NCBI GenBank assembly: GCA_003021175.1
Contig: PXQV01000012.1
Span: 1 to 55,627 of the forward strand
Reading direction: 5' to 3'
DNA length: 55,627 bases
Origin: Halobacteriales archaeon QH_7_66_36
Lineage (GTDB): Archaea > Halobacteriota > Halobacteria > Halobacteriales > Haloarculaceae
The notes beneath the pieces are model-generated. The model worked only from the letters and a program-made list of their open reading frames with translations. It was not told where the DNA came from and searched no databases. Positions 1,584 to 55,627 of the stretch are shown piece after piece. Positions within the stretch are counted from its first letter, which is position 1, and the number at the start of each line of letters is the position of its first letter. Both the position numbers and the translations under genes were made by a program.

Positions 1584-1830
1584 GTGTTTAGTGAAGCCGT
1601 GGAGTTGTGGTGAGAAGAGCGGCGACAGGTTTGGAAGCCCCTGTCCGCTCGACTCGATGGGCTCGCTGCGGTCCCCGTCGGTCGCGCCGCTCCCGCCTGC
1701 GGTCTCCTCGCGCGGCGGTGCCGCACGAGCGGCCCGAGGCGACGGCGTCGCCTCGCTGTTGTCGGCGCTCCGCGCCGACTGCCCGAGGTGGCTCCGCCAC
1801 CTCACTGCTTGTGTCGTCCGCAGAAATCTT
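1584..1830 (-). repeat. Truncated copy C of the MITE-like hairpin element
   Basis: Reading from 1584, the left end GTGTTTAGTGAAGCC resembles the terminal repeat of the copies at 18544 and 31889. The internal part at 1700-1803 matches the reverse complement of copy A closely. It includes four three-base-loop hairpins at 1709-1727, 1736-1754, 1762-1778 and 1785-1803. Similarity ends near 1820-1830 and no second terminal repeat follows, so the copy looks truncated. This fills most of the gene-free stretch 1580-1898. Open frames across it on both strands are by-products of its GC-rich palindromes. Confidence 0.65.
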
Positions 1831-17192: not shown

Positions 17193-18464
17193 ATGAGTAC
17201 GCAGGTACACGCGACCATCGACGAGGCGACGGTCCGACAGATCAGCGACGGACTCGACGAGCCCGACTGGCTGCTGGAGACGCGGCTGGACGCGCTCGAC
17301 GCGCTCGACAGTCTCGACTTCCCGGACGTGATTCGGACGCCCGGTCGGCTGTGGACGGACCTCGAGGAGCTCGACTACGAGAGCCTCGTGGACCCGCTGA
17401 ACGCCGCCGAGGAGAAGGATCAGGTCGGCCCCGACGAGGCCGAGGTGCTCTCCTTCGCGGAGGCGGTCGACGAGCACGAAGACCTCCTGCGCGAGCACTT
17501 CGGCTCCGTCGTCGACCCGGAGACGAACTATCTGACGGCGCTTTCGACGGCGCTGTTCTCGACCGGGACGGTCGTCCACGTGCCGGAAGGCGTCAACGCC
17601 GAGGACGTGACGGTGCGGACGAGCATGAACAGCCGGTCGCTGTTCAACTACACGCTCGTCGTCGCCGAGGAGTCGTCGTCGGTGACGCTGCTTGAACGAC
17701 AGACCAGCGCGGAGCGAAGCTCCGCGGGCCGTTCGAGCGGGCAGAGCCCGCGAGAAGAGACCGGTGAGTCGGTCGAAGGGGACCGCTACTACAGCGGCGT
17801 CGTCGAGGTTGCGGCCGGTGAGAACGCGTACGTCCAGTACGGCTCGCTGCAGAACCTCGATCAGGAGACGTACAACTTCCAGATCAAGGAGGGCGTCATC
17901 GACACTTACGGACAGATCGACTTCATCGACTGCAACGCCGGCTCGCGGCTCTCGAAGTCCACCGTCGAGACGCACCTCGACGGCGACAGCTCGGAGGCGC
18001 GAATCGTCGGGGCCTTCTACGGCCACGACGACCAGCACTTCGACATCGACGCCCGGGTCTGGCACAACGACGAGAACACGACCGCAGACCTCGTGACGCG
18101 GGGCGTCATCGACGACGAGGCCCGTTCCGTCTACGAGGGCGTGCAGGACGTCGGCCGCGAGGCGTGGAACACGAGTTCCTACCAGCGGGAGAACACCCTC
18201 ATGCTCTCGGAGGAGAGCGAGGCCGACGCCTCCCCGAAGCTAATCATCAACAACCACGACACCGAGGCGTCCCACTCCGCGACGGTCGGACAGGTCGACG
18301 AGGAGGACATGTTCTACATGACCTCTCGGTCGGTGCCGGAGCGGGCCGCGAAGAACATGCTCGTCGAGGGATTCTACGTCCCCGTCCTCGAAGAGATCGA
18401 GGTCGACGAACTCCGCGACGACTTCTCGGCGCTCGTCCGCGAGCGGCTCGCGGACCGCGACTGA
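17193..18464 (+). CDS. sufD: Fe-S cluster assembly protein SufD, with an in-frame repeat insert
   Basis: 423-residue paralogue of SufB that completes the SufBC2D complex. N-terminal LDEPDWLLETRLDALDALDSL, beta-helix core YYSGVVEVAAGENAYVQYGSLQNL, conserved His in HDDQHFDID, and C-terminal SHSATVGQVDEEDMFYMTSRS. Residues about 170-189 (TSAERSSAGRSSGQSPRE) are encoded by a 57-nt palindromic element shared with the moeA-like gene at 34971-35027. They sit in a loop between LLERQ and GDRYYSG. The insert preserves frame and the rest of the protein is intact, so SufD is probably functional with a longer loop. Confidence 0.96.
   Translation: MSTQVHATIDEATVRQISDGLDEPDWLLETRLDALDALDSLDFPDVIRTPGRLWTDLEELDYESLVDPLNAAEEKDQVGPDEAEVLSFAEAVDEHEDLLREHFGSVVDPETNYLTALSTALFSTGTVVHVPEGVNAEDVTVRTSMNSRSLFNYTLVVAEESSSVTLLERQTSAERSSAGRSSGQSPREETGESVEGDRYYSGVVEVAAGENAYVQYGSLQNLDQETYNFQIKEGVIDTYGQIDFIDCNAGSRLSKSTVETHLDGDSSEARIVGAFYGHDDQHFDIDARVWHNDENTTADLVTRGVIDDEARSVYEGVQDVGREAWNTSSYQRENTLMLSEESEADASPKLIINNHDTEASHSATVGQVDEEDMFYMTSRSVPERAAKNMLVEGFYVPVLEEIEVDELRDDFSALVRERLADRD
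17702..17758 (+). repeat. 57-nt palindromic element inside sufD
   Basis: 19 codons. Two hairpins with three-base loops: GCGGAGC-GAA-GCTCCGC and GCGGGC-AGA-GCCCGC. By eye 53 of 57 bases match the element in the moeA-like gene, read in the same frame, although the host proteins are unrelated. Confidence 0.9.
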
Positions 18465-18543: not shown

Positions 18544-18844
18544 GTGTTCAGATGGGCGATGGCCGACCGAGCGAGGGCGGTCGGGTGGGACTGGAAGGGG
18601 CCGGCGGCTCGGCGAACCCGGCCGACGCAAGCGGCGAGGTGGCGGAGCCACCTCGGGCAGTCGGCGCGGAGCGCCGACGACAGCGAGGGAGCTCCGCTCC
18701 CTCGGGCCGCTCGCGCGGCGATGCCGCGCGAGGAGACCGCAGGCCAACGGCCGAGGACCGCAGCGAGGCCTGGGAGTCAAGCCGCCGGGGGCTTCCAAGG
18801 TGGTCACGCTGACTGAGTCGGCTCATCCGTGCCTGTCTGAACAC
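18544..18844 (+). mobile_element. MITE-like element, copy A (301 nt)
   Basis: Terminal inverted repeats GTGTTCAGATGGGC (18544-18557) and GCCTGTCTGAACAC (18831-18844) match at 12 of 14 positions. Inside are four three-base-loop hairpins: 18636-18654, 18661-18677, 18685-18703 and 18712-18730. There is no transposase. I see no clear target-site duplication. Open frames within it on both strands look like palindrome by-products. It fills most of the 431-nt gap between sufD and the gene at 18896; the rest is a short spacer and the downstream promoter. Confidence 0.8.
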
Positions 18845-23132: not shown

Positions 23133-24602
23133 ATGGATTGGACGGAGAAGTACCGCCCGTCGACGCTCTCGGAGGTGCGGGGCAACGACAAGGCCCGCGA
23201 CCAACTGAGCGAGTGGGCGGAGACGTGGGACGACCACCAGGAGGCGGTGATCCTCTACGGCTCGCCGGGAATCGGCAAGACGAGCGCGGCCCACGCGCTC
23301 GCCAGCGACAGGGACTGGCCCCTCATCGAGTTGAACGCCTCCGACCAGCGGACGGGCGACATCATCGACCGGGTGGCCGGCGAGGCCGCGAAGTCGAGCA
23401 CGCTCACGCAGTCGGCGGAGGGCGAGCCGGGCCGTCGGCTCGTCATCATGGACGAGGCGGACAACATCCACGGCAACTACGACCGGGGCGGCGCGCGCGC
23501 CGTCACCCGCATCGTGAAGGAGGCGAGCCAGCCGATGGTGCTCATCGCGAACGAGTTTTACGACACGTCGCGGGGGCTCCGCAACGCCTGTCAGACCATC
23601 GAGTTCCGCGACGTGTCCGCTCGCTCTATCGTGCCCGTGCTGCGTGACCTCTGCCGGAAGGAGTCCATCGCCTTCGACGAGGACGCGCTGAAGCGGCTCG
23701 CGGACCGGAACGACGGCGACCTCCGGGGCGCGGTGAAGGACCTGCAGGCCATCGCCGACGGGAAGGAGGAGGTCGGGCTGGAGGACGTGACCGGCGGCGA
23801 GCGCGACCGAACGAAGGGCATCTTCGAGTTCCTCGACGCCGTCCTCAAGGAGGAGCAGCCGCAGGACGCGCTGTATCTCACCTACGACGTGGACGAGACG
23901 CCCGACGACCTGCTCCTCTGGCTGGAGGACAAGGCACCGAAGGTGTTCGAGGCCGACGAGTTGGCGCGGGCGTACGACTACCTCGCGCGGGCCGACCGCT
24001 GGCTCGGGCGCGTGCGCGCCACGCAGAACTACTCCTACTGGCGCTACGCGACGGACAACATCGCGGCCGGCGTGGCGGCCGCCCGCGAGGAGACGCGCGA
24101 CGGCTGGACCCGGTACGGCGGCGCGCCCTACCGGTCGAGCAAGGACGCGACGCGCGACGAGGTGGCGACGAGGATCGCCGAGGTGGCGGGCGTCTCGACG
24201 GCGACCGCGCGCCGCGACGTCGTCCCGTTCCTCGCGGTCATGACCCACCACTGCAAGAACCGCGACCTGACCGTGCGGATGGCCGCCCGCTACGAGTTCG
24301 GCACCGAGGAGGTGTCGTTCGTCACCGGCTCCGGCGAGTCCACGAACAAGGTCGCGGACGTCGTCGCCGACGCGGAGGAACGCCGCGCCGAGCGGGCCGA
24401 AGAGCACGGCGGCGACGTGTTCGACCGCGTCGAGGAGGAGGCGGCGGAAAGCGAGACGGCACAGGCCGAGGCCGGCGACGTGGAACCGGTCGACGGCGAG
24501 GCGGACGAGGAGAGCGCGACTGCGGACGCCTCGGGCGACGAATCCGCGAAGGAAGCGGCCGCGGACGACGAGGCGCAGTCGGGCCTCGGCGACTTCATGT
24601 GA
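23133..24602 (+). CDS. rfcL: Replication factor C large subunit
   Basis: Clamp-loader large subunit, which with the small subunit loads PCNA onto primer ends. 489 residues: MDWTEKYRPSTLSEVRGN, Walker A GSPGIGKT (43-50), Walker B VIMDEADNIHG, sensor ACQTIEFRDVSARSI, then the RFC collar (about 240-400). A haloarchaeal acidic tail (about 400-489) ends QSGLGDFM, a PIP-box-like peptide expected to bind PCNA. Its stop codon directly abuts the stop of the convergent ABC ATPase gene. CACTAAG about 26 nt before the ATG fits a promoter. Confidence 0.96.
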   Translation: MDWTEKYRPSTLSEVRGNDKARDQLSEWAETWDDHQEAVILYGSPGIGKTSAAHALASDRDWPLIELNASDQRTGDIIDRVAGEAAKSSTLTQSAEGEPGRRLVIMDEADNIHGNYDRGGARAVTRIVKEASQPMVLIANEFYDTSRGLRNACQTIEFRDVSARSIVPVLRDLCRKESIAFDEDALKRLADRNDGDLRGAVKDLQAIADGKEEVGLEDVTGGERDRTKGIFEFLDAVLKEEQPQDALYLTYDVDETPDDLLLWLEDKAPKVFEADELARAYDYLARADRWLGRVRATQNYSYWRYATDNIAAGVAAAREETRDGWTRYGGAPYRSSKDATRDEVATRIAEVAGVSTATARRDVVPFLAVMTHHCKNRDLTVRMAARYEFGTEEVSFVTGSGESTNKVADVVADAEERRAERAEEHGGDVFDRVEEEAAESETAQAEAGDVEPVDGEADEESATADASGDESAKEAAADDEAQSGLGDFM

Positions 24603-25340
24603 TCAGAGCAGGCGTTCGAGGAACCGCTCGCCGCGCTCCGTCTCCGGCGATTCGAAGAACGACTCCGGCGCGCCCTGTTCGACCACCTCGCCGTCCGACA
24701 TCAACACGATGCGGTCGCCCACCTCGCGGGCGAACCCCATCTCGTGGGTGACGGTAAGCATCGTCATGCCCTCCGTCGCGAGGTCTTTCATGACGCCGAG
24801 CACCTCACCGACGAGCTCCGGGTCGAGCGCGCTCGTCACCTCGTCGAACAACATCACCTTCGGGTCCATCGCGAGGGCGCGAGCGATGGCGACCCGCTGC
24901 TGCTGGCCGCCGGAGAGTTCGGCCGGATACGACGCCGTCTGGTCGCCCAGTCCGACCCGACCGAGCAGGTCGTCGGCGCGTTTCGTCGCCTCGCTCTCGG
25001 GAACGCCCTTCACCTTTCGCGGCCCGACGGCGACGTTCTCGGTCGCCGTCATGTGGGGAAACAGGTTGAACGACTGAAACACCATGCCGACCTGCTGGCG
25101 GAGGCGGTTGACGTTCGCGTCCGGCCCGGAGATCAGGTCGCCGGCGATGCGTATCTCGCCGCCCTGAATCTCCTCCAGTCGGTTGGCACAGCGGAGCAGG
25201 GTCGATTTGCCCGACCCCGAGGGACCGACCACGACGACGACCTCCTGTTCCTCGACCGCGAGGTCGACCTCTTTCAGCACGTGTGTCTCGCCGAAGTACT
25301 TGTCCACGCTCTCGTACTCGACGAGCGGTCGGGTGCTCAT
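24603..25340 (-). CDS. Polar amino-acid ABC transporter, ATP-binding protein
   Basis: 245 residues starting at ATG 25340 ([17 protein letters not shown]). Walker [11 protein letters not shown]-loop [18 protein letters not shown], signature [15 protein letters not shown], Walker [16 protein letters not shown]-loop TVTHEMGFA. The FQSFNLFPH and HEMGFARE blocks are characteristic of GlnQ/HisP-like importers of polar amino acids. Overlaps the permease by 4 nt. The complete set of substrate-binding protein, permease and ATPase is present, so uptake of one polar amino acid (possibly Gln, Glu or Arg) is likely. Confidence 0.94.
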
Positions 25341-26164
25341 CGCGGCCCCCCCGTCGGGTCGGCCCGCGCCTCCAGGTATCGGACGAATTTCCCGAGCGGG
25401 ATCGTTATCGCGAGATACAGTATCGCCGCCCAGAGGATCGGCGTCCAGATGTCGAAGGTGGCGCTGTTGATGTTCTGGACCGTGCTGATTATCTCCGGTA
25501 CGGCGAGCACGGAGAGCAGGGAGGTGTCCTTGACGAGGATCACCTGATCGTTGCCGATGGCCGCGAGCGCGTTGCGCCACGCCTGCGGCAACACGACCTC
25601 TCGCATCGCCTGTGCGTACGACATGCCGAGCGAGCGGGCCGCCTCCATCTGGCCGTCGGGGACTGCCTCGACGCCGCCGCGAATCGCCTCGCCGATGTAC
25701 GCCGAGTGGTTCAGCGTGAGCCCGATTATCGCCGCCGGAACGCTGAAGTTCGCGATGGGGAACTGGCCGGGCGGCCAGAAGGCCGGGATGCCGGAGTAGA
25801 TGACGATGAGTTGGAACAGGAGCGGCGTCCCGCGGAAGAACTCGATGTATCCCTTGGCGATGCCGCGGGTCGGGAGCGTCTCAGAGATGCGGCCAAGGCC
25901 AACCAGCATGCCGCCGGTCACCGACAGTACGCTGCTGATGGCGACGATTCGCAACACGACGAAGAACGCGTCGATGAACTGCGGATGGATGATGTTCACG
26001 AACCGGTCGGGGTTGACCTGCGTGTAGAGGATGACACCGAGGAATCCCACCACGGCCAGCGTGAACAGCCCGGAGGCCGCAATTCCGATGATCTTCAGTC
26101 GTTGGTCGTTCAGGAAGGGGCTGGAAGGCGACTCGTCTCCTCGCCCGTACTGCGTCTCAGACAT
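25337..26164 (-). CDS. Polar amino-acid ABC transporter, permease
   Basis: 275 residues with about five membrane helices. The family EAA loop is [43 protein letters not shown], diagnostic for HisM/GlnP permeases. [20 protein letters not shown] is the other conserved block. An extra hydrophilic N-terminus ([17 protein letters not shown]) precedes helix 1. A single permease gene implies a homodimeric channel. The 4-nt overlap couples it to the ATPase gene. Confidence 0.94.
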
Positions 26165-26220
26165 CCTTGGAGACGAGACGGACCCGCGGACTTAAATCCA
26201 CGCCGATACGCACGGTGTAG

Positions 26221-27081
26221 CTACCCCGCGAAGTACTCGTCGTATATGTCGTCGTAGGTGCCGTCCTCCTTGATGCTCGCGAGCGCGCCGTTGACCTCCT
26301 CGCGGAACTCGCCGTCGTCCTCGCGGAACGCGATGCCGTACTCCTCGACGGTGAGGGTGAGATACGGCGGCGCGTTCTCGTCGTCTTCGGCCGCAGCACC
26401 CTCGCCTTCGACGAACCGGACGTTGTCCCGCTGATTGACGAACTCCGCGTTGACCGTGTTGTCGTTGACCACCGCGACCACCTGATTGTTGATGAGCGCG
26501 TCGAACGCCGCGGGAATCTGGTCGTACCGCTTGATGCTGAGGTCGCCGTCGAACTCTTCTTTCAGTTCGTCGGCCGCCCCGGCACCGGTCGTCCCCTTCT
26601 GGACGCCGACGGTTTGCCCTTTCAGGTCCGACTTCGCGGTGATGTCGCTGTCCTCTAACGCGACGATGGTCTGGTAGGCGGTGAAGTACGGGTCCGAGAA
26701 GTCGACCTCCTCGTCGCGCGCGTCGTTGATCGTCATCGCGCTCATGATGACCCGGAAGTTGCCGTTGTTGAGCGAGGAGATGATCGTGTCGAAGCTCGTG
26801 TCGGCGAACTCCGGCGTGAGACCGAGCTGTTCGCCGAACACCGCCTCCGCAATGTCGACATCGAAGCCGAGGAGCTCGCCGTCCTCGTTCTCGTACTCGA
26901 ACGGCCGGTACGGGATGTCAGAGCCGATGCTGATCGTGTCGTTGCCATCGTCGGTGGCGTCGCCAGTGTCGGTGTCGGTGCCACCGCCGCTGATACCACT
27001 ACACCCGGCCAGCGCCGCGACCCCGCCGGCACCGAGCGCCGAGAGATACGAACGCCGGTTCACTCCGTGTTCGCGTGACAT
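26221..27081 (-). CDS. Polar amino-acid ABC transporter, substrate-binding lipoprotein
   Basis: 286 residues from ATG 27081 (MSREHGVNRRSYLSALG). Twin-arginine signal NRRSYLSALGAGGVAALAG with lipobox LAGC, so it should be exported folded by Tat and lipid-anchored outside the cell. Mature SBP_bac_3 domain: SIGSDIPYRPFEYENEDGELLGFDVDIAEAV, VIMSAMTINDARDEEVDFSDPYFTAYQTIV, GQTVGVQKGTTG, all typical of amino-acid binders. An ATG six codons upstream (27099) is possible but adds nothing to the signal. 57 nt separate it from the permease gene. Confidence 0.94.
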   Translation of the reverse strand: MSREHGVNRRSYLSALGAGGVAALAGCSGISGGGTDTDTGDATDDGNDTISIGSDIPYRPFEYENEDGELLGFDVDIAEAVFGEQLGLTPEFADTSFDTIISSLNNGNFRVIMSAMTINDARDEEVDFSDPYFTAYQTIVALEDSDITAKSDLKGQTVGVQKGTTGAGAADELKEEFDGDLSIKRYDQIPAAFDALINNQVVAVVNDNTVNAEFVNQRDNVRFVEGEGAAAEDDENAPPYLTLTVEEYGIAFREDDGEFREEVNGALASIKEDGTYDDIYDEYFAG

Positions 27082-27185
27082 ATTCGACCGGGAATACAAC
27101 GGAGTCGCGTTTGAACGTTTCGTCGTGTGACGGAAAAACGGACGCTCGCTCTTTCGAGGCGGCCGTTCGGCAGTCGCCTCGGTTC

Positions 27186-27372
27186 GCGGCCTGAGGCCGC
27201 TCGCCCGTCCGGCGGTCTCCCTGCGTTCTGCTCACGGGCGCGACGCGCCCGTCTGTTCGCGGCTACGCCGCTCACACGGCCCGTGGACCAACGGTCCACG
27301 CTGTTCGCCCGGCTCGTGGCGGCGAAGCCGCCACGCTGTCGTCGGCGCGTCGCGCCCGTGAGCAGAACGCAG
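27186..27372. repeat. Array of six three-base-loop hairpins with a 26-bp outer inverted repeat
   Basis: Arms at 27221-27246 and 27347-27372 are perfect inverted repeats of 26 nt around a 100-nt centre. Six hairpins with three-base loops follow each other: 27186-27200 (loop TGA), 27234-27252 (GAC), 27259-27271 (TAC), 27282-27300 (AAC), 27315-27335 (GAA) and 27344-27356 (GTC). The right arm ends 7 nt before the malic-enzyme stop codon. This fills the 298-nt gap between the binding-protein start and the malic-enzyme end; the left part (27082-27185) carries the binding-protein promoter. Confidence 0.85.
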
Positions 27373-27379
27373 GCCTCGA

Positions 27380-29632
27380 TCAGTCGTTCTGCGCGTCGAC
27401 GACGGCGACGCCCGCCAGATTCACGATGTCTTTCACCTCGTCACCGCGCTGGAGCACGTGCACCGGCTTGTCCATCCCCACCAGCATCGGGCCGATGGCT
27501 TCCGCCCCGCCCAGCCGCTGGAGCAGTTTGTACGCGATGTTGCCCGCTTCCAGATTCGGGAACACCAGCACGTTCGCCGGCGCGTTTAGGTCTGAGAACT
27601 CGTAGTCCTCGCGCAACAGATCCTCCACGACCGCCGTGTCCGCCTGCATCTCACCGTCGACAGGGAAGTCGACTGCCGAGTCCGAGCGGAGCGAGTCGGC
27701 CGCCTCCTGAACCTTCACGATGCCCTCGTTCTGCACGGAGCCGAAGTCGGAGTAGGAGAGCAGGGCCGCCCGCGGCTCGACGTTGAATCGCCGGGCCAAC
27801 GCCGCCGTCTGCTTCGCCACTTCCTCCAACACCTCGGCATCGGGGTCCTGATTCACCGTCGTGTCGGCGCAGAACACGACCCGATCTTTGAACGTCAGCA
27901 TGTACACCCCCGCCGCGTACTCCGTCTGCTCGTCCGTGCCGATGACGCCGAGCGGCGCGCGGAGCGCCTGCGGATAGTGGTGGGTCAGGCCGGTGAGCAT
28001 CGCGTCGGCATCGCCCACCTCGACCATGACGCTGCCGAGGTGGTTGCCGTTGGTCACCAGCTCTTCCGCCTCGCGGCGGGTGACGCCCTTCCGTTTGCGC
28101 AGTTCGTGGAGCCGCTCGGCGTACGGGGCGAGGGTCTCCGCTTCCGGGTCGACGATCTCGGGATCGAAGTCCAGTCCGAGTTCGTCGGCCGTCCGCAGGA
28201 TGCCGTCGCGGTCACCGATGAGCACGGGCTCGGCGATGCCCTGATCCGTCAGCTGGTAGGCGGCGCGGATCATCTTCTCGTCGTCGCCCTCGGAGAGGAC
28301 GACCCGCTTGGGGTCGGATTTCGCCTTGTTGAGCACGACCCGCATCATCTCGCGGCCCTTCCCGAGGCGCGCTTCGAGCTGCTCCTCGTAGCTCGACAGG
28401 TCGAGTTCGGTCCGGGCACAGCCGGAGTCGATTGCCGCCTGTGCGACTGTAGGCGCCAACTCGAACAGCACGCGGGGGTCGAGCGGCTTCGGGATAACGT
28501 AGTCGGGGCCGTACTGGAGCGGCTCGTCGCCGTACGCCTTCACAACCGCGTCGGGCACGTCCTGCCGGGCGAGTTCCGCCAGCGCCTCCGCAGCGGCGAC
28601 CTTCATCTCCTCGTTGATCTCGGTGGCGCGCACGTCCAGCGCGCCCCGGAACAGGAACGGGAACCCGAGCACGTTGTTCACCTGATTCGGGTAATCGGAG
28701 CGGCCGGTTCCCATGATGACGGTGTCGTCGCGCGCCGCCCTCGCCTCCTCGTAGCCGATCTCCGGCGTCGGGTTCGCCATCGCGAAGATGATGGGGTCGT
28801 CGGCCATCGACTGCACCATCGCCTGTGAGACGATGCCGGGGGCAGACAGGCCGACGAACACGTCGGAACCGGCCATCGCGTCCGCGAGGCCACCCTCGGG
28901 TACGTCGCGGGCGAACTCCCGTTTGAATTCATTCACGTCGCCCGCCTCGGCCCGCCCTTGGGTGATGATCCCAGAGGAGTCACACATCGTGATGTTCTCC
29001 TTGCGAACGCCGAGCGAGACGTAGAAGCGAGCCGTCGCGATGGCCGACGCGCCCGCACCGGAGAAGGTCACCTCCAGATCGGCGAGATCCTTCCCGATGA
29101 TGTCGCAGGCGTTGAGCAGGCCCGCCCCTGAGATGATCGCCGTCCCGTGCTGGTCGTCGTGGAACACCGGGATGTCCATCCGCTCGCGCAGTCGCTCCTC
29201 GATCTCGAAACACGCAGGGGCCGCGATATCTTCGAGGTTGATGCCGCCGAAGGTCGGCTCCATCGCGGCGACGCTCTCGACGAACGCGTCCGGATCGGTG
29301 TGTTCCAACTCGATGTCGAACACGTCGATGTCGGCGAAGCGCTTGAACAGCACCCCTTTCCCTTCCATCACCGGTTTCGACGCCTGTGCGCCGATGTCGC
29401 CGAGACCGAGCACGGCCGACCCGTTCGACACCACGCCGACCATGTTCCCTTTCGCCGTGTACTGATACGCGGCGTCCGGGTCGTCGGCAATCGCCTCACA
29501 CGGCGCTGCCACCCCGGGAGAGTACGCCAAGGAGAGATCCCGCTGGGTGTTGGTGGACTTCGTCGTCGAGATCTCGAGCTTTCCCGGCGGTGCCGACTCG
29601 TGGTACGCCAACGCGTCTTCGTCAAGTCCCAT
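27380..29632 (-). CDS. maeB: Malic enzyme fused to phosphate-acetyltransferase-like domain (MaeB type)
   Basis: 750 residues from ATG 29632 ([21 protein letters not shown]). Residues about 1-420 form an NADP-type malic enzyme converting malate to pyruvate and CO2: [33 protein letters not shown], the metal site [13 protein letters not shown](P) loop FSGAGASA, and [10 protein letters not shown]. Residues about 425-750 form a phosphate acetyltransferase-like domain ([64 protein letters not shown]), usually regulatory and catalytically inactive in MaeB. A TTG at 29644 is a weaker alternative start. Divergent from the heme A synthase gene. Confidence 0.95.
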
Positions 29633-29740
29633 GGAGGAGGCCAACGCGGGAGCGTGAAAAACCTACCCGAAGCGGCGTTCGTCGTCCGTCGAACCGCCGT
29701 GGAGCGGACCGATTAAGTCCGGCCAGCCCCGAACGCGTGT

Positions 29741-30550
29741 ATGGATTTCCGGAAAGTCGCGGCGGGGACCGCGGCGCTGGCGGCGGTGACGATGCTGTTG
29801 GGCGTGTTCACCGCCGCAGAGGGCGCGGGTCTCACCTGTGCACAGCGGTGGCCGCTCTGTGACGGGCCGCTCGGCGGCCTCCTGCCGGCGAACTATCTGA
29901 GCTTCGTCGAGTGGTTCCACCGGCTCGTGGCCGGCACCACGGGTCTCGTCGTGTTGGGGACGGTGGTGCAGGCGTGGCGGACGGGCCAGTCGAAGCGCAT
30001 CCGCTACGCGGTGACGGCCGCACTCGCCATCCTCCCGGTGCAGGTGACGCTCGGCATGCTGACGGTGACGACCTACGAGTGGCTCGTGCTCGTCGCGCAC
30101 TTCACGACCGCGACGGCTATCTTCGGGCTTCTCACGCTCGCGGCGGCGTGGGCTTACCGGACGACGGACGCCGCTCCGTCCGGTCGGTACGCCGCGCTCG
30201 CCGGGAGCGCGCTGGCGGTGCCGGCGGCCGTCGTCTCCCCGCGCCTCTTGTTCGCGTTCGGCTCCGCGGTGCAGGTGACGTACTACGCGCTCCTGCTCGG
30301 AGCGTTCGCGGCGCTGCTCGCGGCGACCGTCTGGCTCCGCGGCCAGCGAGCGGCGGCGCTGACCGGGGTCGCCGCGGCGCTCGTCGCGGGCCTCCTCGTG
30401 CTCGGCCGACAGAACTACAGTCAGACGGTGGCGGTCGGCACCGTAGTCGCGCTCGCCGTCGTCGTCGGCTGTGGGTTCCTCGCGGCACGAACCGCAGGCT
30501 CGAAGCGCGACGACACGCCGCCGCGAGACATCCAGCTCGACAGTCGGTGA
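29741..30550 (+). CDS. ctaA: Heme A synthase family protein (CtaA/COX15)
   Basis: 269 residues with about eight membrane helices. Conserved family features: AEGAGLTCAQRWPLCDG (Cys-containing loop after helix 1), SFVEWFHRLVAGTTGLVVLG with the heme-ligand His, and VTLGMLTVTTYEWLVLVAHFTTATAIFGLL with the second His. It oxidises the methyl group of heme O to give heme A for terminal oxidases. The C-terminal half carries FGSAVQVTYYALLL and VLGRQNYSQTVAVGT, more divergent from bacterial CtaA, as is usual in haloarchaea. The final 20 residues are hydrophilic. Monocistronic. Confidence 0.85.
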   Translation: MDFRKVAAGTAALAAVTMLLGVFTAAEGAGLTCAQRWPLCDGPLGGLLPANYLSFVEWFHRLVAGTTGLVVLGTVVQAWRTGQSKRIRYAVTAALAILPVQVTLGMLTVTTYEWLVLVAHFTTATAIFGLLTLAAAWAYRTTDAAPSGRYAALAGSALAVPAAVVSPRLLFAFGSAVQVTYYALLLGAFAALLAATVWLRGQRAAALTGVAAALVAGLLVLGRQNYSQTVAVGTVVALAVVVGCGFLAARTAGSKRDDTPPRDIQLDSR

Positions 30551-30813
30551 GAGACGAGAAGCCACGGCGAAGGGGCCGAAATGGTGGCACCGCTTCGAGC
30601 CGTGTCAACTTCCCGCCCGGAGAAAACCGCCGGACAGGAAGCGTGGGTGCGTCCCCAGACCACCACGACACCCATCACCCCCCAGCAACGGGTGCACAAC
30701 GGCGAAACGCCGTGTGGTGGCAACTGCACGTACAGCCCCATCGGTATTGAACTGACTCCCTTCGTACCTAGAGTGACGGTGCGCTTATACCTCTCCCTGC
30801 CGACTGTTCGCCC
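30551..30813. other. 263-nt intergenic region, no gene recognised
   Basis: GC-rich and without a convincing coding frame on either strand. It ends with the promoter of the pterin dehydratase gene (CGCTTATACC about 25-35 nt before the ATG at 30814). A Cys-containing reading on the plus strand (HNGETPCGGNCTYSP) has no family resemblance I can name. Confidence 0.5.
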
Positions 30814-31092
30814 ATGAGTGAGACGCTCACGGACGAGGAAATCGCGGATCGACTGCCCGGCGGCTGGAGCCGCGACGGCGACGAAATCGTCCGGACGTTC
30901 GAGTTCGACTCGTATCTGGAAGGGGTGGGCTTCGCGGCCGGGGCCGGCGGTCTCGCCGAGGAGGCGTTTCACCACCCCAGCATGACCGTCGAGTGGCGAG
31001 AGGTCGAGGTCCGACTGACCACACACGACGCCGGCGGTATCACAGACAAGGACATCGATCTGGCGGAGCGGTTCAACGAACTCGCCGGGTAG
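30814..31092 (+). CDS. 4a-hydroxytetrahydrobiopterin dehydratase (pterin-4a-carbinolamine dehydratase)
   Basis: 92 residues matching the whole PCD fold. ADRLPGGWSRDGDEIVRTFEFDSYLEGVGF, then the active-site block EEAFHHPSMTVEWREVEVRLTTHDAGGITDKDIDLA, with the HH and late His/Asp residues that dehydrate the 4a-carbinolamine pterin. It recycles or salvages pterin cofactors; in archaea the protein partner is often unknown. It stands alone, convergent with the redoxin gene. Confidence 0.95.
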   Translation: MSETLTDEEIADRLPGGWSRDGDEIVRTFEFDSYLEGVGFAAGAGGLAEEAFHHPSMTVEWREVEVRLTTHDAGGITDKDIDLAERFNELAG

Positions 31093-33555: not shown

Positions 33556-35431
33556 TTACGCTTTGTCGCTTCGCGCGTATCCGGGGAGGGCGTCGAACAC
33601 ATCCCTGCCCTCGGCGACCGCCTCGCGGAGTCGCTGCACGCCGGGCTTGTCGATCCGTTCGGGGGCCGCGAGGACGCGAACCGTCTCCGTCCCGACGGGA
33701 ACGAGGCCGAGGCCGAGTTTCTCGGCCGTCGCGCGCAGTCCGAGGCCGGCGTCGGCCTTCCCCGCGAGGACGCGTCGGGCGGGCGACTCGTGGGCGCGCA
33801 CCGCGCGGTCGAAGCCGTCGACGGCCTCCACGAGGTCGTGGCGGTCGACGCCGCGCTCGTCCGCGAGCGTCGCCAGCGCGTTCGACAGCGACGTGCGAAG
33901 CCCGGAGTCGGTCGTCCGGTTGACGAAGGCGAGGTCGTCGTCCACCAGCGAGTCGAGACCTGTCACGCCTGCGGGGTTCCCCTCGGGGACGACGAGGCCC
34001 CACTCGCGACGCCACGCGCCCAACTCCTCGGTGTCGACACGGCCCGTCTCCGGCGCGCTCGTCACGGCTACATCGGCCACGCCGTTGCGCACCCGCCGCA
34101 GGCCGGGGCGTGATCCCTGTCCGAGATACCGCGGGCGGTCCACGCGGTCGAGCAGGCGCGCGAGCGCCGGGTCGTCCTCGCCAACGCCGAACAGCGACGG
34201 CGGGCGCACCTCCGGCGAGAACAGCCGCACCTCGACCGTCTCGCCCTCGCTCAGATACTCCGTGTCCGGGTCGACGGCGACGACGCCGTCCGCCTCAACG
34301 AGCGACGTGGTCGCGCCCGACCCCTTGTCGACCGGGTAGACGAGCGTGTCGCCGTCGCCGTCGGTGACGAGCCCCGCCGGCATGTAGCGGAGTCGCCCCT
34401 CGGCGTACCGCTCCTCGACGGCCATCTCGCCGGCCACGGTCGCGCCCGCCGGCTCCGGTTCGCCCGCCGCGCGGCGGATGGCGGGCGCGACGAACGTGCG
34501 GAAGATGGTGAGCGCGCTCACCGGATACCCCGGCAGGCCGACGTAGGCGCTGTCGTCGAGCGTGCCGATCAGCATCGGCTTGCCCGGCTTGACCGCGACG
34601 CCGTGCAGGAGGAGTTCCCCCCGCTCCTCGATGACCCGGTAGATCACGTCGACGGCGCTGGCGGAGGTCGACCCCGACGAGAGGACGAGATCGCACTCGT
34701 CGGCGGCCTCGCGGAGCACGCGCTCCATCTCCTCGCGGTCGTCGCCGGCGTGCGGATACAACTCGGGTCGGCCGGCCGCGCACGGGCACCTCGTCGACCC
34801 CGAGTGCAGACAGCAGGCCGATCTCGCGGGCGGTGATCTGTGTCCCCGGGCCGAGCGCGCGTTCACCGGCGGCCACGTCCGCGCCCGCGAACATGATTCG
34901 GTCGCCCGGCGCGAGTGCGGTACGGGCCAGAACCTCTTCGCTCGCGGCTCCCGGGTCGTTCCGCTCCCCGTCTTCTCGCGGGCCTTGCTCGCTCGAACGG
35001 CCCGCGGAGCTTTGCTCCGCGCTGGTCGCTCTGTCGGCGTCGGTTTCAGACGCCCGGTCCGTCCGCTCGACCATCACCACGGCGTCGACACCGTCCGGCA
35101 CCACCGCGCCGGTGGAGATTTCGGCACACTCGCCGGGACCGACGGTCACCTCCGGCACCTCGCCGGCGTGGACCTCGCCGATCAGTTCGAGACGGGCCGG
35201 GTCGGCCTCGTCCGCGCCGAAGGTGTCGGCGGCCTGCACCGCGTAGCCGTCGACGCTCGCGCGGTCGAAGCCCGGCACGTCGAGGTCGGCATCGAGTCGG
35301 TCTGCGAGCACGCGGCCGCGCGCTTCCGCGAGCGGTACCGTCTCCGCTTCGGGCGTCAGGTCGAGCGACGCGATGGCGTCGTGGGCCTCCTCGGGCGGCG
35401 CGAGGTCGCGGAACTCCTTGCGGTCGGTCAC
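33556..35431 (-). pseudogene. moeA: Broken MoeA-like gene with C-terminal substrate-binding domain
   Basis: The intact gene would encode a molybdopterin molybdenumtransferase fused to a LysR/PBP-like substrate-binding domain. The N-terminal frame (GTG at 35431) has MoeA domains: DVPGFDRASVDGYAV, GECAEISTGAVVPDGVDAVVMVER, REIGLLSALGVDEVPVRGRPTRVVS. At about 34755-34775 it must switch to the frame that reads ELYPHAGDDREEMERVLREA, LVLSSGSTSASAVD, GKPMLIGTLDDSAYVGLPGYPVSALT and the C-terminal domain to 33556. Roughly 35-40 residues including the STGDE motif are missing. A repeat is also inserted in frame at 34971-35027. Two breaks make it almost certainly inactive. Confidence 0.85.
34971..35027 (-). 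repeat. 57-nt palindromic element inside the moeA-like gene
   Basis: Minus-strand copy of the sufD element, differing at four positions by eye. It encodes TSAEQSSAGRSSEQGPRE in the same frame as in SufD. First hairpin GCGGAGC-AAA-GCTCCGC; the second hairpin has one mismatched pair. It lies in a loop after MVERTDRASETDADRA. Confidence 0.9.
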
Positions 35432-35449
35432 GCGAGTTCACCTCGCGTG
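35429..35449. repeat. Hairpin over the GTG start of the moeA-like gene
   Basis: CACGCGAG, five-base loop, CTCGCGTG. It covers the start codon of the minus-strand gene, so it could hide the start in mRNA or be part of the neighbouring repeat. Confidence 0.5.
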
Positions 35450-35460
35450 ACCGATGAGGG

Positions 35461-55453: not shown

Positions 55454-55544
55454 GCATGTCTGTGGGCGTCGGGGAATAAAATACCCCTCGCAGTTCGAGG
55501 CAAGGTCCAGATACGAGTGACTCTGGAGATGAGGACGACGAAGT

Positions 55545-55627
55545 GTAGAAAGCCCCCGGTCGCTCGACTCGCGCGCCTCGCTGCGGTCCTCGTCGTTCGC
55601 TTCGCTCACTCCTGCGGTCCTTGCGTC
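55545..55627 (-). repeat. Partial copy D of the MITE-like element (cut by window end)
   Basis: From about 55551 (AGCCCCCGGTCGCTCGAC...) to 55627 the sequence follows the reverse complement of copy B closely, including CGCGCGCCTCGCTGCGGTCC and GCGGTCCTTGCGTC. The terminal repeat is not obvious at the left. The preceding 90 nt hold the promoter of the amidohydrolase. Confidence 0.65.

Follow-up and report, generated by a model that had tools for sequence, protein, structure and literature searches.

Nested double-hairpin units, probably mobile, behind the malic enzyme gene of a haloarchaeon, with related in-frame copies in genes of Halobacteriales

The malic enzyme locus

The window analysed here is a stretch of 55,627 nt at the start of contig PXQV01000012.1 of Halobacteriales archaeon QH_7_66_36. 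It includes the malic enzyme coding sequence (complement of 27380-29644), which encodes a malic enzyme-phosphotransacetylase fusion, and, behind it, an array of hairpins. Six triloop hairpins described in an earlier note on this DNA are indeed present within 171 nt (27186-27356), at 27186-27200, 27234-27252, 27259-27271, 27282-27300, 27315-27335 and 27344-27356. The inverted repeat that had been reported as perfect and 26 bp long is perfect, but its length is 30 bp (27220-27249 and 27344-27373, plus strand). Its arms are separated by 94 nt, which gives a total length of 154 nt, and only 6 nt lie between the end of the right arm and the malic enzyme stop codon. The linker CTGTTCGC occurs twice (27253-27260 and 27302-27309), as had been noticed.

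The array folds far better than shuffled sequence (z = -8.6 as RNA and -10.1 as DNA), and none of 200 shuffles folded as well. The outer and the local structures do exclude each other, as had been proposed: for RNA of the minus strand the predicted energy is -140 kcal/mol for the free fold and -98.2 kcal/mol when only local hairpins form. Rfam models gave no match at E<=1 in 24000-31000. The earlier note had raised misassembly as a possible source of the array. This explanation is not needed, because the repeat spans only 154 nt and its left half is found at the orthologous place in the independent sister genome G005. Elsewhere in the window (35424-35454) there is a lone hairpin with a perfect 13-bp stem, TCGGTCACGCGAG-TTCAC-CTCGCGTGACCGA, unlike the two-hairpin unit described below.

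The two-hairpin unit and its distribution

The array is built from units of 50-58 nt, each with two hairpins. The first hairpin has the form TGY-TC-GCGG..-nnn-..CCGC-TC-RCA, with a conserved TC/TC internal mismatch. The linker CGGCCCG connects it to a second hairpin, which ends in CGCTG/A. The stems covary: across 37 aligned copies, 97.3% of cells are paired (80.9% in shuffles), and 80 cells are changed on both sides (23 in shuffles). Such compensatory changes can reflect selection or the template-switch repair of palindromes, and hence are no proof of function.

A covariance model of the unit (R1) was built from the alignment. Its background in the window is at most 17 bits, whereas true copies score 27-67 bits. 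Five strong copies were identified in the window (1705-1758, 17705-17756, 18681-18734, 27254-27303 and 34973-35024). The copy at 34973-35024 (plus strand, 62.4 bits) is a solitary intergenic unit. Those at 18681-18734 and 1705-1758 belong to a second array of related units on the minus strand (18632-18734; 58.9 and 33 bits) and a third on the plus strand (1705-1807; 57 and 28.8 bits). A search of the genome for copies of the array, which the earlier note had called for, returned at least 48 BLAST matches. Copy numbers for this genome are lower bounds. Contigs C1, C8, C9, C13 and C17 of the assembly (G000) start or stop in these repeats, thus the copies are probably underestimated.

The unit is widespread in the order. 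With only 20 candidates per genome scored and a single copy at E<=1e-4 taken as sufficient, R1 was positive in 212 of 293 sampled genomes and in 64 of 87 genera. In a draw of 197 genomes at the level of the phylum there were 22 positives, all 22 from the unit's own order, and none was among the outgroup genomes listed. BLAST with the core of the window array gave no match to plasmids and phages, and an exact pattern scan of viral contigs identified no unit. A unit of the type found in coding sequences matched nine haloarchaeal plasmids. No match was obtained with a 24-residue peptide by tblastn, possibly due to the low-complexity filter.

Parts and history of the malic enzyme array

Comparison with G005 suggests how the array was assembled. 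An ancestral unit is represented in the window by two halves. The first (27229-27251, plus strand) is the hairpin TGCTCACGGGCGC-GAC-GCGCCCG, which is at the same place in G005 and there runs straight into TTCGCACGGCTCGTGGCG. The second (27304-27338, plus strand) consists of the linker TTCGCCCGGCT, the hairpin CGTGGCGGC-GAA-GCCGCCACG and CTG, and is recovered as a partial R1 match (27307-27338, 27 bits). Between them is a second canonical unit of 50 nt plus 2 nt (27252-27303, plus strand), of which 27254-27303 scores 65.5 bits with R1 (E 9e-12). This second unit is missing between the same flanking bases in G005, where R1 matches 114 nt (L233 1019-1132, 39.8 bits) as a full unit carrying an insertion and where the loop of the ancestral second hairpin contains another inserted pair of hairpins. 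These alignments show that one unit stood downstream of the malic enzyme gene in the common ancestor with G005, and that the linker of this unit contains a second one in the window. This arrangement accounts for the repetition of CTGTTCGC.

On the side of the malic enzyme gene, the array continues with the start of a further module, TCGTCGGCGCGTCGCGCC (27339-27356, plus strand), and 27332-27356 is identical to the starts of canonical arrays at two other loci (L090 and L100). Those arrays go on with ..GACTGCC, whereas the window turns at GGCGCGTCGCGCC into an exact inverted left arm. Of the left arm (27220-27249), 29 of 30 bases are present in G005. The right arm (27344-27373), its perfect complement, is absent from G005 and would have been entered at the shared palindrome GGCGCGTCGCGCC. 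The 30-bp repeat probably arose recently, when template switching copied the left arm in inverted orientation. Alternatively, the right arm could have been lost in G005 and not simply never present there. At the other end, a degenerate unit (27181-27223, plus strand; 27.6 bits, E 5e-4) includes the hairpin at 27186-27200, the stem of which is broken in G005.

Four genus-mates (G001-G004) have no array at the malic enzyme locus. R1 gave only three weak matches across 80 named malic enzyme loci (788 kb), and the array is thus not conserved behind malic enzyme.

Copies within genes

One of the copies in the window is inside a gene. The unit at 17705-17756 (minus strand, 66.6 bits) is in frame within sufD (17193-18464, plus strand; SUFBD_core, E 1e-62) and encodes TSAERSSAGRSSGQSPRE. 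At this site a 54-nt in-frame insertion is present in the genome studied and in G001, and the site is cleanly empty in G002, G003, G004 and G005. By sequence, the genome studied is nearer to G005 (empty) than to G001 (filled). The pattern of filled and empty sites therefore departs from relatedness and implies loss, transfer or two gains. A comparable case, from named records annotated independently of this analysis, is plasmid-borne merA, in which an 18-codon unit is present in Halorussus aquaticus, Salinirubellus sp. SYNS196, Natrinema zhouii and Salinigranum rubrum, and the site is empty in Halorarius litoreus, Haloarcula marismortui pNG600, Natronomonas gomsonensis and Halorussus limi. No convincing target duplication for the unit was identified at the sufD and merA insertions.

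The copies in genes are uniform in orientation. Of 40 further loci from across the order, 20 are intergenic and 20 in genes, and all 20 of the latter are antisense and in one phase. The same was true of all 15 in a first batch, giving 35 of 35; some of these are orthologues and hence not independent, and the gene caller sees only genes that are still open. Other annotated examples in the same strand and phase occur in cobN of Natronococcus occultus and in an annotated mismatch-repair gene record, the same locus as L306. Length is fixed at exactly 52 nt in all 30 distinct in-gene copies that were tabulated, compared with 50-58 nt for intergenic copies, and copies in genes add 17-18 amino acids to the protein. 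The 35 copies encode S(E/A)xRSxSxRxSGxxPR(E/A), and the peptide consensus is S-E/A-A/E/G-R-S-x-S-D/G-R-S/A-S-G-x-x-P-R-E/A. The frame used is free of stops and has the lowest hydropathy of the six. Stops alone do not dictate this choice, as four of the remaining five frames also have hardly any stops. Each of three stem sequences goes with its own coordinated peptide form (SEG..SPS, SAE..SSA and SEA..SAS), which suggests that pairing is preserved more than the peptide.

Host genes identified by Pfam include those for GatE, an amino-acid kinase, an M20 peptidase, a nitrite/sulfite reductase, a protein of the ribosomal L15/L27A family, oligopeptidase F, an aldo/keto reductase, a short-chain dehydrogenase, a magnesium-chelatase-like protein and a cupin. 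TrpA and TrpB were identified by PDB match, and alignment of TrpB with 5ey5_B leaves an 18-residue gap at the unit insert. GatE appears to be hit at two different sites, the second of which (L305) comes from a reading of the sequence. At four pairs of loci (L251/L257, L255/L263, L303/L306 and L307/L309) the unit occupies the same gene position in different genomes and differs slightly in some pairs. These slight differences imply old insertions that are still changing. Also present in the genome studied is a trpA (L112 1193-2182) with a 58-residue Ser/Gly-rich insert built of several hairpin modules. The earlier note had listed conservation of the array as coding sequence in relatives as a finding that would refute its reading. 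The outcome was unexpected: the unit does code for protein elsewhere, but not at the malic enzyme locus.

IS6-type MITEs and remodelling of hairpins

The genome contains 46 full-length elements of 164-503 bp with ends GGYRGTGTTCAGATA and hairpin modules inside (loci L089-L210). Many of the copies in the genome lie within elements of this kind. Several elements are flanked by target duplications of 8 bp, among them GCGTCACG and TCGACTGG. An element of the genus-mate G003 that has a match to an IS6-type transposase bears the same ends, and on this basis the 46 are IS6-type MITEs. No IS6-type transposase was found in the genome itself. An IS1595 transposase was also considered as the origin of the ends, and none occurs in the genus. 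The right end of one GGYRGTGTTCAGATA-ended MITE is at the edge of the window (55499-55627). At the malic enzyme array (27.2 kb) there are no such ends, and no combination of ends and 8-bp target duplication encloses it.

At MITE sites that are orthologous in G005 the flanks are about 91-95% alike and the hairpin interiors are largely replaced. Direct comparison of orthologous MITEs (L217 with L196, and L219 with L101) shows flanks and ends retained and the hypervariable interiors, which turn over quickly, remodelled. Hairpins in the same slot carry either a loop or its reverse complement (TTC/GAA, TCC/GGA, GCA/TGC and CACAG/CTGTG), and a loop flip between direct orthologues was seen once (L217/L196). 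At one orthologous MITE site the left-border end differs, as if the element had been inverted.

Interpretation and alternative explanations

Dispersed copies of the unit are found within MITEs, as free arrays and as in-frame insertions in genes, and orthologous sites are filled in some genomes and cleanly empty in others. We conclude that the malic enzyme array is very probably a nest of non-autonomous mobile palindromic units. Insertion without clear target duplication would fit the recognition of hairpins in single-stranded DNA by an enzyme acting in trans. The mobilising enzyme was not found, and no unit adjoins the only Y1 transposase gene of the genome; an HUH-like enzyme is our leading guess, and a tentative one. 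Hairpins clustered in this way may provoke template switching during replication, as well as gene conversion, and so flip loops, swap modules and duplicate arms. The 30-bp repeat would most likely have formed when replication of the last module switched to the left arm as template. In genes, the insertions that survive would be those whose length is divisible by three and that are read via the hydrophilic, stop-free antisense frame. Intergenic units are probably near-neutral, and a host function for the malic enzyme array is not required.

Further, we lean towards the view that this is a mobile double-hairpin of the whole order Halobacteriales with two interchangeable states. One consists of loose intergenic arrays. 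The other is a 52-nt coding state that adds 17-18 residues to housekeeping proteins on a single strand and in a single phase, is kept harmless by the hairpin sequence, and has stems that covary faster than the peptide is conserved. If so, the unit would constitute the largest protein-invading palindrome family so far known.

The earlier note had offered three interpretations of the array (a terminator, a BIME-like repeat or a recombination substrate), and together they find partial support. The array's position just behind a stop codon and its very stable fold would suit a transcription terminator or a 3'-end stabiliser of the malic enzyme mRNA. However, no T tract adjoins it on either strand, the interior differs in G005, and copies are found equally inside genes. 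A conserved terminator is unlikely given the four genus-mates that lack the array, and we consider either role highly improbable, although a secondary effect on the mRNA may occur. The order-wide distribution, conserved linkers and covarying stems might instead indicate a structured RNA gene or cis-regulatory RNA that is under selection and not mobile. Presence and absence at orthologous sites, the unrelated host genes and the lack of an Rfam match at the malic enzyme locus make this reading highly improbable.

The sharing of hairpin modules with the 46 MITEs, several of which have target duplications, and of MITE ends with the IS6-type element of G003 raises the possibility that the array is the hairpin interior left behind by such an element. 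We regard this as very unlikely, as MITE ends are absent from both the window locus and its G005 orthologue and from the sufD and merA insertions, and units stand alone in other genomes. A REP/BIME system moved by a REP-associated tyrosine transposase (TnpA-REP) would explain why the hairpins are short and imperfect and share an internal mismatch, why they form mosaic clusters, and why clear target duplication is lacking. It is nonetheless unlikely: there is one Y1_Tnp gene in this genome and none in G001, G002 and G005 (67%-complete), though all hold units, and the four Y1_Tnp matches of the genus are flanked by no units. The label BIME-like is apt insofar as the array is a cluster of dispersed palindromic units, but no REP tags (GTAG/CGTC at the hairpin foot) were noticed, the conserved linkers reading CGGCCCG and CGCTG/A, and no neighbouring REP-type transposase was found. 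Recombination is supported indirectly, by the completely different interiors in the sister species, the flipped loops, and the 30-bp repeat, which resembles a recent inverted copy. Overall, a nest of mobile units remains the preferred explanation.

Comparison with known systems

To our knowledge, most known cases of short palindromes inserted into working genes come from Rickettsiales. A literature search, in which subscription papers were sparsely covered, returned no description of this haloarchaeal unit family and none of its peptide strings. The REP/BIME and REPIN sequences of bacteria resemble the unit in being short imperfect palindromes that form mosaic intergenic clusters, are non-autonomous and lack a clear target duplication. 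The unit differs from them in its frequent coding insertions and in that no adjacent REP-type transposase was found. The hairpin modules are shared with the IS6-family MITE, which carries them as cargo in the same genome, whereas the window array is without MITE ends.

Transposase-free mobile repeats of haloarchaea include the MITEs, PATEs and SMRs of Haloquadratum walsbyi (PMC3119063). The PATEs are linked to IS605, and the SMRs are about 110 bp long with terminal repeats, SMR-A also inserting in palindromes of other repeats (PMC3119063). With neither the terminal repeats of SMRs nor a link to IS605, the unit is set apart from all three by their descriptions (PMC3119063).

The closest likeness is to the Rickettsia palindromic elements (RPE; Ogata et al. 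2000, 2002), described as about 150 bp long (PMC10969869), and to the protein-coding palindromes cited for Wolbachia and Methanocaldococcus jannaschii (PMC2996958). The palindromes of all three, like the haloarchaeal unit, are in frame in unrelated housekeeping genes, encode a recurrent peptide, occur also between genes and have no enzyme of their own. Relative to the RPE as described (PMC10969869), the unit consists of two separate hairpins, is about 52 nt and not about 150 bp long, and keeps to one strict strand and phase. It also differs in that its stems covary, that it is distributed across an entire order, and that it nests into arrays and MITEs.

The unit is a genome-repeated palindrome with in-frame insertions, empty orthologues and a recurrent peptide, the features that define elements of the RPE type. 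We would class it with these elements by how it works and not by descent, with no sequence relationship expected. The unit may explain odd Ser/Arg/Gly-rich inserts of 17-18 residues in haloarchaeal proteins, a warning for those who annotate or align them. The family is present in most sampled haloarchaeal genera, and named strains that can be cultured have sites that are cleanly filled or empty. The mobiliser, the tolerance of proteins for the insert and the question of whether such insertions feed protein evolution are therefore open to testing. With caution as to novelty, we view the unit as a haloarchaeal variant that works like the Rickettsia palindromic elements.
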